DNA from: Mycobacterium sp.
GTDB taxonomy: Bacteria; Actinomycetota; Actinomycetes; Mycobacteriales; Mycobacteriaceae
DNA length: 64,000 bases
Reading direction: 5' to 3'
Assembly: GCF_025965855.1 (NCBI RefSeq)
Contig: NZ_JAOPWB010000192.1
Coordinates: 1-64,000, forward strand
Shown: positions 9,623 through 13,146 of the stretch, one piece after another
Position numbering within the stretch: the stretch's first letter is position 1
How the letters are laid out: each line of letters opens with the position of its first letter
Position numbers and translations under genes: made by a program
The notes under the pieces: model-generated
Seen by the model: the letters and a program-made list of their open reading frames with translations, nothing else
Told to the model about the DNA's origin: nothing
The model's database searches: none

Positions 9623-10558
9623 ATGGTCAGTTCACAAAAGCAGACATCGCGACATCCATCCGGCGAGACACCCATGGTGGGTCGGCTGTTCCTTCTCGAC
9701 CTCAGCGACAACCGCATCGTGACGCTCAATTCGGACGGCTCGGGGCGCAAGGTCATCGTCACCGATTGCAGACTCCCCGATGGCATCGCGGTCGATGTCG
9801 CGGCGGGACATATCTACTGGACCAACATGGGCAACCCCAAGGCGAACGACGGCTCCATCGAGCGGGCCGACCTTGATGGGCGGAATCGAACGTCGATCGT
9901 TCCCCGGGGCTGCACGTTCACGCCCAAGCAGATCCAGCTCGAAAAGAAGAGCCGAAAGCTGTACTGGTGCGACCGCGAGGGCATGCGTGTGATGCGCGCC
10001 GATCTCGACGGCTCCGACATCGAGACCCTCGTGGACACAAGCCAGGGCGACTCCCGACCGGGGCCGGACGCATCGAGGTGGTGTGTGGGCGTGGCCGTTG
10101 ATCTCGATGGCGGAAAGGTCTACTGGACGCAAAAAGGGCCGGACAACGCCGGCAAGGGTCGCCTTTGCCGCGCCGGCATCGAGGTCCCCGCAGGACAGAC
10201 GACGTCCAATCGAACAGATATCGAAGTTCTGTACGACGGGCTTCCCGAGCCGATCGATCTGGACCTCGACCTCAACAACCGGGTCATGTATTGGACCGAC
10301 CGCGGCGACCCGCCGCGCGGCACCACCGTGAATCGCGCCCCGATGGATTCGGACGCGAACGGCCGGCCCGCGCCCGAGATCGTGTTCACGCACTTGATGG
10401 AGGGAATCGGTATCGCCCTGGATCTGAAGGGCGACCGAATGTTCATCACCGATTTCGGCGGCAATGTCCTTTCGGCCAACCTCGATGGCTCGGACGAGAA
10501 GGCCCTGCTCGTCGCTCAAGGAAACCTGACCGGCATCGCCTACACCGAATCTTCGTGA
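9623..10558 (+). CDS. YWTD-repeat beta-propeller protein
   Basis: The 311-residue product is built from LDL-receptor-class B (YWTD) repeats that form a beta-propeller. Repeat signatures are visible about every 45-60 residues: IYWTNMG, LYWCDREG, VYWTQKGP, MYWTDRGD and MFITDFGG, each followed by an LDG or similar turn. No signal peptide is seen, so it is probably cytosolic. A lactonase or binding role is possible but not shown. It heads a tight plus-strand cluster; the next gene starts 15 bases after its stop. Confidence 0.8.
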   Translation: MVSSQKQTSRHPSGETPMVGRLFLLDLSDNRIVTLNSDGSGRKVIVTDCRLPDGIAVDVAAGHIYWTNMGNPKANDGSIERADLDGRNRTSIVPRGCTFTPKQIQLEKKSRKLYWCDREGMRVMRADLDGSDIETLVDTSQGDSRPGPDASRWCVGVAVDLDGGKVYWTQKGPDNAGKGRLCRAGIEVPAGQTTSNRTDIEVLYDGLPEPIDLDLDLNNRVMYWTDRGDPPRGTTVNRAPMDSDANGRPAPEIVFTHLMEGIGIALDLKGDRMFITDFGGNVLSANLDGSDEKALLVAQGNLTGIAYTESS

Positions 10559-10573
10559 AAGGGAGACAACATC

Positions 10574-11548
10574 ATGTCATTCGAAAAACCAATTCGTCGT
10601 GTTGCAGTGGTCGGGACGGGAGTCATCGGTGCCAGCTGGGCGGCTCAGTATTTGGCGCGCGGGTTCGACGTCGTTGCGACCGACCCCGCTCCAAACGCCG
10701 AGGCCAACTTGCGCAAGTACGTCGACGCGGCTTGGGGACAGCTCGAAGAAATCGGCCTGTCGCCCAGCGCATCCCGCGATCGCTTGAGCTTCACCAAAGA
10801 CATGGAGCAGGCGCTTGCGAAGGCCGACTTCGTCCAGGAGAACGGTCCCGAGCGACCTGACTTCAAAATCAGGTTGTTCACGGAAATGGATGAAGCCACG
10901 CCCCTCGATTCGATCATCGCGTCGAGTTCGTCGGGGATAACGCCAAGCGTGATGCAATCGGCCTGCAAGCACCCGGAGCGGGTCATCGTTGGCCATCCGT
11001 TCAATCCGCCCCACATCGTGCCACTTGTGGAAGTAGTGGGCGGGACCAAGACATCGCCCGACGCCATCGAGCAAGCGATGCGCTTCTATGCGTCGATCGG
11101 CAAGAAGCCCATTCGTCTACGCAAGGAACTGCCCGGACACGTGGCCAACCGGCTCCAGGCCGCACTCTATCGGGAGATTCTCCACCTCGTCGAACAAGAC
11201 GTGCTGAGCGTCGAGGAAACCGACATCGCCGTTTCCTACGGACCCGGACTTCGGTGGGGTGTGATGGGCCAAAGCCTGCAATGGCATGTAGGCGGAGGGG
11301 CGGGTGGTATCAAGCACTTCATGGAGCAGCTCATGGACCCGCTTGCGGCAATGATGCAGACACTCGGAAACCCCCAGGTCACGCCCGAACTCAAGCAGAC
11401 CATCGTTGACGGTGTCATGCGCGAAGCCGACGGGCGCCCCGTCGAAGAGCTCGCTCGAGAAGAGAACGAGGTGATAATCGGGCTGCTTCGGCTGCGAGCG
11501 AACGGCGTGAGCGCCACCCTGGCGGCGACGAAATCCGTTGGCGCATAG
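10574..11548 (+). CDS. 3-hydroxyacyl-CoA dehydrogenase family protein (carnitine-dehydrogenase-like)
   Basis: The 324-residue product has an N-terminal NAD-binding Rossmann domain (GTGVIGASWAAQYLARGFDV near residue 15) and the 3HCDH signature GHPFNPPHIVPLVEVVGG that carries the catalytic His. A C-terminal helical dimerisation domain follows. Length and layout match single-domain 3-hydroxyacyl-CoA or L-carnitine dehydrogenases rather than FadB fusions. AAGGGAG lies upstream of the ATG. Being flanked by a CoA transferase fits a CoA-ester catabolic step; the actual substrate is unknown. Confidence 0.88.
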   Translation: MSFEKPIRRVAVVGTGVIGASWAAQYLARGFDVVATDPAPNAEANLRKYVDAAWGQLEEIGLSPSASRDRLSFTKDMEQALAKADFVQENGPERPDFKIRLFTEMDEATPLDSIIASSSSGITPSVMQSACKHPERVIVGHPFNPPHIVPLVEVVGGTKTSPDAIEQAMRFYASIGKKPIRLRKELPGHVANRLQAALYREILHLVEQDVLSVEETDIAVSYGPGLRWGVMGQSLQWHVGGGAGGIKHFMEQLMDPLAAMMQTLGNPQVTPELKQTIVDGVMREADGRPVEELAREENEVIIGLLRLRANGVSATLAATKSVGA

Positions 11549-11601: not shown

Positions 11602-13146
11602 ATGACTACCGTAATCAAACCTGACCTTAGTCAAGAGGGGTGCGGAAATTCTCAGTTGACCGCGGCGCTCGAATCGGCACTCAACAATCCGGCACAGTCA
11701 GCCGGCTACGATCTGCTGGCGAACACAAACGATGTACTGGGCGACATCGGACTGACTGCCGCGGACTGCGGAGGACGCCTGTCGTTCTACGGGCAGGACC
11801 CGATCCTTCCCAGCCCCCATCGGTTTGGTGCAATGGCCGCGATCGGCCTGGCCGCGAAGTCTGTCGCCGCGGCAGCCCTATGGCGGGAGAGAACCGGAGA
11901 AGCACAGGACATCCACGGTGACGTCCGCAAAGCGCTTCGACGGTTCTGCGGTTTCTTTGACGGGAAATGGGAAACAATGAACGGACGCCCGCCCGCGATG
12001 GGCGGATTCGCGGGCAACCCGTTCCTCGAGATCCCGCTCTTCCGCAAGACACGAGATGGGCGCTACGTGGTCGCGTTGGATTTCTATCCCCGATCGAAGA
12101 CGGACACGCTCAAGTTCCTCAGGTGCACCGATAGCCTCGCGTCCATCGAGAATGCCATATTGCAATGGCGCGCCGACGATTTGGAGGCGGCGGCGGCAGA
12201 AGAAGGTCTCGTGCTCGCGATGGTGCGAACCACCGAAGAGTTTCTCACTGAGCCGCAATACACCGAAATCCTCTCCACAATGCCCTTGATCACGGTGGAA
12301 AAGATCGGCGACTGCGAGCCCATGCCGTTCAACACCGACGGACAGAATCCGTTGGACGGCATTCGCGCGCTCGGCATGGGGCATGTGATTGCGGGAGGCG
12401 CGATGGGACGCGATCTCGCCATGTACGGCGCGGACGTCCTTAACATCTGGCGGCCCAACGCCACCGAGCTCGAGGCCTTCGCCTGGGATGTGCAGGTGGG
12501 GATGCGCTCGACCATCCTGGATGGCTCCGAGGCAGATCGCGCCAAGTTCGACGACCTGCTCAGGAACGCCGACGTCTTCTTCGCCAACAAGCGCCCCGGT
12601 TATTTGGAGCGAAACGGTCTTTCTGCCGAAGAGTTGTGCGCGAAGAAACCCGGACTTATCCACGCCAAGGTGATCCTGCATGGCGACACAGGGCCATGGT
12701 CGAACCGCCCCGGCTTCGACGAGATCGGCGCAGCCGTATCGGGTGTCTTCTGTATCGAAGGGACACCTACTTTCCCCAAATCGCCTGCGATTGTCCCCAT
12801 TTGCGACAACGTGGTGGGTTGGCTCGGGACCGTCGGCGTACTCGAAGCGTTGCGCAGGCGCGCGACGGAGGGCGGCAGCTATCGGGTCGTGGTGTCTTTG
12901 ACCCGAACCGTGCTGTGGCTGCTTTCTCTTGGCATCTTCGGCAAGGAATACGCCGCGGCGAGGGCTGGATCGAGCGACGAGCACATGTATGTCGCGCCCG
13001 ATTTGTTTACCGCAGAAACTCCGCTCGGTACCTACCAGGGAATGACCGACCAGGTGGTCATGTCGCGCACGAAAGAGTCATACCGAACGGTGTTGGTGCC
13101 GCACGGGTCATCGAAGCCGCAATGGCTGGGATCTGACAGGAGTTGA
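11602..13146 (+). CDS. Class III (CaiB/BaiF) CoA transferase with unusual domain order
   Basis: The 514-residue product belongs to the formyl-CoA transferase family, but the halves appear out of order. Residues about 70-235 resemble the central and C-terminal part of CaiB (ALWRERTGEAQDIHGDV with the nucleophile-type Asp, then a DGRYVVAL-like stretch and MVRTTEEF). Residues about 250-510 resemble the N-terminal part (LDGIRALGMGHVIAGGAMGR, YGADVLNIWRP, ADVFFANKRPGYL, KPGLIHAKVILHGDTGPW). Standard members run about 400 residues in the opposite order. The GTG of the pirin gene follows 2 bases after the stop. Confidence 0.8.
   Translation: MTTVIKPDLSQEGCGNSQLTAALESALNNPAQSAGYDLLANTNDVLGDIGLTAADCGGRLSFYGQDPILPSPHRFGAMAAIGLAAKSVAAAALWRERTGEAQDIHGDVRKALRRFCGFFDGKWETMNGRPPAMGGFAGNPFLEIPLFRKTRDGRYVVALDFYPRSKTDTLKFLRCTDSLASIENAILQWRADDLEAAAAEEGLVLAMVRTTEEFLTEPQYTEILSTMPLITVEKIGDCEPMPFNTDGQNPLDGIRALGMGHVIAGGAMGRDLAMYGADVLNIWRPNATELEAFAWDVQVGMRSTILDGSEADRAKFDDLLRNADVFFANKRPGYLERNGLSAEELCAKKPGLIHAKVILHGDTGPWSNRPGFDEIGAAVSGVFCIEGTPTFPKSPAIVPICDNVVGWLGTVGVLEALRRRATEGGSYRVVVSLTRTVLWLLSLGIFGKEYAAARAGSSDEHMYVAPDLFTAETPLGTYQGMTDQVVMSRTKESYRTVLVPHGSSKPQWLGSDRS

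Follow-up and report, generated by a model that had tools for sequence, protein, structure and literature searches.

A class III CoA transferase with reversed domain order, probably derived from two fused partial CaiB copies

A CoA transferase encoded in a mycobacterial genome presents the parts of the class III fold in an unfamiliar order. Its small-domain half precedes its large-domain half in the chain, in place of the large domain, small domain and C-terminal return that characterise the class. The gene occupies positions 11602-13146 on the + strand of the window, by which is meant the whole 64,000-nucleotide stretch of DNA that was analysed, and runs from an ATG at 11602 to a stop at 13146, specifying a protein of 514 amino acids (Table 1). 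From the domain order, the overlap between the halves, the distribution of the catalytic aspartate, the conservation of the family and a confident predicted fold, we infer a history in which two CaiB copies were fused and then suffered complementary deletions, leaving one complete active site per chain. This is the simplest and the best reading of the protein, and is probably correct.

Domain order and predicted fold

Pfam recognises a single family in the whole 514-residue protein, CoA_transf_3 (PF02515), which is matched in two stretches (E 1e-41). The score, 143.7 bits where the cut-off is 23.3, places the protein in the superfamily by sequence. The better of the two stretches pairs residues 251-453 with positions 1-214 of the 366-position profile. 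When the N-half was searched alone, residues 83-222 matched profile positions 170-325 (E 2.3e-4), and the N-halves of eight of nine other diverse members also matched PF02515, with profile starts of 141-171, ends of 264-324 and E-values down to 6e-8. Alignment of the family profile by hhalign gave the same picture, residues 73-223 of the N-half falling on the later part of ordinary CaiB (E 2.8e-12) and residues 248-466 of the C-half on the first part (E 4e-44). Named NCBIfam enzymes (formyl-CoA, carnitine, mesaconate and succinate-glutarate CoA transferases) were not matched at their equivalog cut-offs, the best score being 61 bits against cut-offs of 413-750.

An earlier note on this DNA had assigned residues 70-235 to the later part of CaiB and residues 250-510 to the first part, coordinates that proved nearly exact. 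The former assignment agrees with both the Pfam and the hhalign matches of the N-half. The latter holds for residues 251-453 but fails for the last ~60 residues, which resemble the CaiB C-terminal segment instead. A full-length CaiB domain in one half, which the note had named as evidence against its proposal, did not occur; by PF02515 each half is only partial.

AlphaFold2, supplied with 47 sequences, produced a confident single-chain model of the full-length protein (pLDDT 92.5, pTM 0.93). Every PDB match that Foldseek lists for this model is either a class III CoA transferase or a racemase with the same fold. Most of them align over ~200-260 columns with a query-normalised TM-score of ~0.35, the highest listed value being 0.43, over 378 columns, for a subunit of BbsEF. 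Among these listed matches the full-length model has no end-to-end counterpart in any solved structure. The C-half alone also adopts a confident fold (pLDDT 91.1), which Foldseek matches to the CaiB large domain with a TM-score of ~0.64. Structure prediction and alignment, proposed in the earlier note as a check, thus bore out its expectation that the ordinary order is absent.

Table 1. Features of the CoA transferase gene, its neighbours in the window and related tandem fusions of the same genome
Feature	Position	Strand	Basis
YWTD beta-propeller protein	9623..10558	+	Pfam Ldl_recept_b; present in several close-relative loci
L-carnitine-dehydrogenase-like 3-hydroxyacid dehydrogenase	10574..11548	+	Best NCBIfam model PRK07066 L-carnitine dehydrogenase, 313 bits, cut-off 414
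Rearranged class III CoA transferase, 514 aa	11602..13146	+	Pfam; AlphaFold pLDDT 92.5, pTM 0.93
Putative copy A, residues 73-110: central helix and GxGQDI strand, repeating the Asp-helix region but lacking the catalytic Asp	11818..11931	+	hhalign to ordinary CaiB; no Asp in catalytic column
Putative copy A, residues 117-235: small domain and return	11950..12306	+	PF02515 170-325 match; hhalign
Putative copy B, residues 250-445: large (Rossmann) domain	12349..12936	+	PF02515 1-216; PDB sequence matches YfdE, Rv3272 and formyl-CoA transferase; C-half Foldseek TMq ~0.64
Codon of Asp402, candidate catalytic nucleophile	12805..12807	+	Invariant in 47 relatives; aligned with the Asp in every ordinary CaiB tested
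Putative copy B, residues 456-511: likely C-terminal segment, joined directly to the large domain with no small domain between	12967..13134	+	hhalign to CaiB 387-434, E 0.008, 0/200 column shuffles as good; no Pfam match alone
Pirin-family protein overlapping the CoA transferase stop codon	13143..14153	+	Pfam Pirin and Pirin_C
Six tandem CaiB-CaiB fusions	Loci L153, L154/L171, L155/L173, L156/L168, L167/L169, L172		G000 contigs C199, C12, C187, C15, C291, C168

Active site and oligomeric state

Asp402 lies in the helix that follows the Rossmann core, in the column of the catalytic aspartate, as is expected of the class III superfamily, and is invariant in 47 sequences of the family. The catalytic aspartate aligns in all 15 of the C-halves tested. 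In the N-half, 14 of 15 members, the window protein included, lack an aspartate in that column, and the aligned aspartate of the fifteenth (locus L124) may be an alignment slip. The earlier assignment of the nucleophile to the region GEAQDIHGDV was wrong; the candidate is Asp402 in the C-half.

In YfdE, the aspartate and the substrate-loop histidine of each site are contributed by different subunits, the site forming at the interface between the small domain of one subunit and the large domain of its partner (PMC3720670). Family III enzymes have chains that are threaded through one another (PMC9813914). It had been suggested from the sequence that an interlocked dimer would explain how a chain of this order can still work; by analogy this seems sensible, agreeing as it does with the supply of aspartate and substrate loop by different subunits (PMC3720670).

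In the history proposed here, copy A (residues ~30-240) would have retained its small domain along with the region of the central helix, but lost the Rossmann domain together with the catalytic aspartate. Copy B (residues ~245-514) would have kept the Rossmann domain with Asp402 and the closing C-terminal segment and lost the small domain. Since an ordinary site takes its aspartate from the large domain of one subunit and its small-domain loop from the other subunit, a single complete site should be present in each rearranged chain, with no interlocked partner needed. Judging by this anatomy and by published structures of the ordinary enzymes, Asp402 would attack the acyl-CoA to give an aspartyl-acyl anhydride, CoA would return to form an aspartyl-CoA thioester, and an incoming carboxylate would then take the CoA from this thioester.

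There is perhaps an even chance that the family as a whole represents a widespread and undescribed branch of self-contained, single-chain, one-site enzymes, each in effect a 'half dimer', freed from the interlocked-dimer architecture by complementary domain loss from two fused copies. The strongest competitor is a homodimer in which two rearranged chains pair by swapping their small domains, so that each of two sites is built from two chains. This arrangement is compatible with the proposed domain anatomy. It would be in keeping with the interlocked dimers seen in the class III enzymes whose published structures were consulted (PMC3720670, PMC9813914), and in some loci two such genes do stand side by side. 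One chain with one copy of each domain is nevertheless predicted with a pTM of 0.93, and pairing of this kind appears somewhat unlikely.

Fusion of two copies versus permutation of one

Positions ~165-216 of PF02515, a stretch of ~50 profile positions comprising the Asp helix and the next strand and helix, are present in both halves of the protein, as judged by the match of each half to ordinary CaiB. Direct profile comparison of the N-half with the C-half gave no significant repeat (E 0.058). At the other end of the chain, hhalign with a larger reference set places the last ~55 residues on the C-terminal segment of CaiB, which in the ordinary enzyme comes after the small domain (E 0.008); none of 200 column shuffles reaches the score. 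Against a small reference set the tail gave an E-value of 0.11, the register test being reached by 13 of 200 shuffles and the top score by 1 of 200; searched alone against Pfam, it matched nothing relevant. By its sequence, the tail is likely the CaiB C-terminal segment.

These observations bear on whether a single CaiB chain could have been circularly permuted, its old C-terminal part moving to the front and its new termini opening in the linker between the large and small domains. The main blocks do run in the order that such an event would produce, later part and then first part, and a route through duplication and partial truncation could leave an overlap of this kind. A circular permutant should, however, contain each segment once and join the old termini internally. 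Here the central segment occurs twice, and the C-terminus of the chain probably carries a copy of the segment that ought to connect the halves. The repeated central segment and the C-terminal-like tail therefore fit two overlapping partial copies better than a circular permutation, which we consider unlikely. The earlier note had left the choice between a permuted and a half-duplicated chain; the reversed order it described stands, while on the two grounds just given 'half-duplicated' is the better supported term. Some points tell against the two-copy reading: the tail match is weak, the trees do not set the family beside the tandem CaiB-CaiB fusions, and the fetched loci show no intermediate architecture.

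Gene neighbourhood and substrate

Two genes upstream of the CoA transferase gene encode a YWTD propeller protein and a protein resembling L-carnitine dehydrogenase. By its sequence, the latter is a relative of L-carnitine dehydrogenase and not a member of that family (Table 1). A carnitine-dehydrogenase-like gene is found near the CoA transferase gene in 13 of 80 loci, and a YWTD gene in fewer, all of these being closer relatives. On conjugative plasmids of Sinorhizobium chiapasense and Bradyrhizobium sp., a dehydrogenase-like pair of genes stands immediately upstream, arranged in the same way, and from its size and position the first gene of the plasmid pair would encode the YWTD protein. On both plasmids the gene at this position is annotated as a 3-hydroxyacyl-CoA dehydrogenase, which the Pfam match of the window protein does not support. 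The setting of the YWTD (LDL-receptor class B) propeller protein in the window is that of a bacterial catabolic operon.

Carnitine dehydrogenases act on free beta-hydroxy acids, so that the CoA transferase may serve to activate a beta-hydroxy or beta-keto acid that is then broken down further. The gene neighbourhood suggests an acid of this type as the CoA acceptor in the closer relatives only. More distant relatives are found in other gene settings, and substrates therefore probably differ across the family.

The pirin gene overlaps the stop codon of the CoA transferase gene by four bases, which suggests that the two genes are translationally coupled. Such a gene also adjoins the CoA transferase gene in other mycobacterial loci (L068, L181), and none was seen beside more distant relatives.

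Loss of the aspartate in one copy, and the fact that the search turned up no assayed member, might be taken to indicate a non-catalytic CaiB relative which only binds acyl-CoA, but the invariance of Asp402 across the 47 members and the placement of the gene in metabolic operons make this highly improbable.

Distribution and phylogeny of the family

Full or partial members of the rearranged family occur in approximately 28 of the 298 genomes of the genus, a count that omits C-half-only matches at ordinary-CaiB scores. Eighty loci were kept from the named genome collection, with identities ranging from 87% to 30%. The same order occurs in at least five phyla, Actinomycetota, Pseudomonadota, Bacillota, Acidobacteriota and Chloroflexota, as well as in archaeal metagenome-assembled genomes (MAGs), the binning of which may mislead. 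Across the fetched loci, which were chosen by similarity to the window protein, 135 frames have the small-then-large order, 38 the large-then-small order and 12 two full tandem copies, some frames being counted twice. Homologues of the same domain order, which the earlier note had proposed seeking, were found, and the order is conserved over phyla. In trees of either half the rearranged family forms a single clade (support 100/99 and 100/100); its sister group is not settled by the tree of either half. In plasmid records its members are annotated just as 'CoA transferase' or not at all.

This conservation already refutes a frameshift, chimaeric assembly or wrong gene call as the source of the unusual order: although the window comes from a draft genome of 362 contigs and a few relatives are frameshifted, the same uninterrupted order recurs in about a hundred frames from complete as well as draft genomes.

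Several loci depart from the common pattern. At L108:6884-10186 and L179:1574-4876, two family genes of small-large order, sharing ~40% and 28% identity with the window protein, stand in tandem and possibly work together. Members at L178:1501-2800, L114:6740-8396 and L047:1053-2664 appear to be frameshifted, either within a half or between the two. Separate genes for the two halves were sought; L178 and L114 look like frameshifts rather than clean splits. Frames comprising only the C-half, 63-71% identical to the window protein, occur at L105:1-771 and L107:327-1130 on contigs binned as Nitrososphaeraceae archaea; as they lie at or very near contig ends, a binning error or truncation is likely.

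A published description of the rearranged architecture was not found in the literature searched, which lacks most subscription journals. The family is apparently a new variant within the class III CoA transferases, with neither a description nor a characterised member found.

Relation to known class III enzymes

Class III CoA transferases are textbook interlocked dimers, with sites common to two chains. A large family with seemingly one complete site per chain would test the need of interlocking for activity, and the rearranged chain would offer a simple scaffold on which to study a site normally tied to the interlocked dimer. It is also apparent that PF02515 matches labelled just 'CoA transferase' conceal a distinct architecture across many phyla.

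The rearranged protein shares with CaiB, FRC/YfdW, YfdE and Rv3272, all of PF02515, the same domains and the same position of the catalytic aspartate, and is ~24-31% identical to the solved class III structures over the aligned part of the large domain. The ordinary enzymes have a large domain, a small domain and a C-terminal return in each chain, and two interlocked chains form two sites. In the rearranged protein, by contrast, the small domain heads the chain and each domain is present once, apparently contributed by two partial copies.

Another parallel is offered by the tandem CaiB-CaiB fusions, six of which, of ~800 amino acids, are encoded in the same genome as the window protein. Like the rearranged protein they have two copies per chain, and the polarity of the aspartate is the same: it is lost from copy 1 and kept in copy 2 in all six. 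The tandem fusions, however, retain both full copies, whereas the rearranged protein misses complementary parts and is left with one large and one small domain. The aspartate polarity in the tandem fusions makes it plausible that the parts of a dead site were lost in the rearranged family. Trees of both halves, used to test for descent from the mycobacterial tandem fusions themselves, do not show it, as they do not place the rearranged family next to those fusions. The DMSP CoA-transferase DddD is likewise of the tandem CaiB-CaiB fusion type. Finally, the benzylsuccinate CoA-transferase BbsEF (PDB 9fn0) resembles the rearranged protein in that two unlike copies cooperate, although in BbsEF these are two separate full-length subunits and in the rearranged protein they are combined in one trimmed chain.
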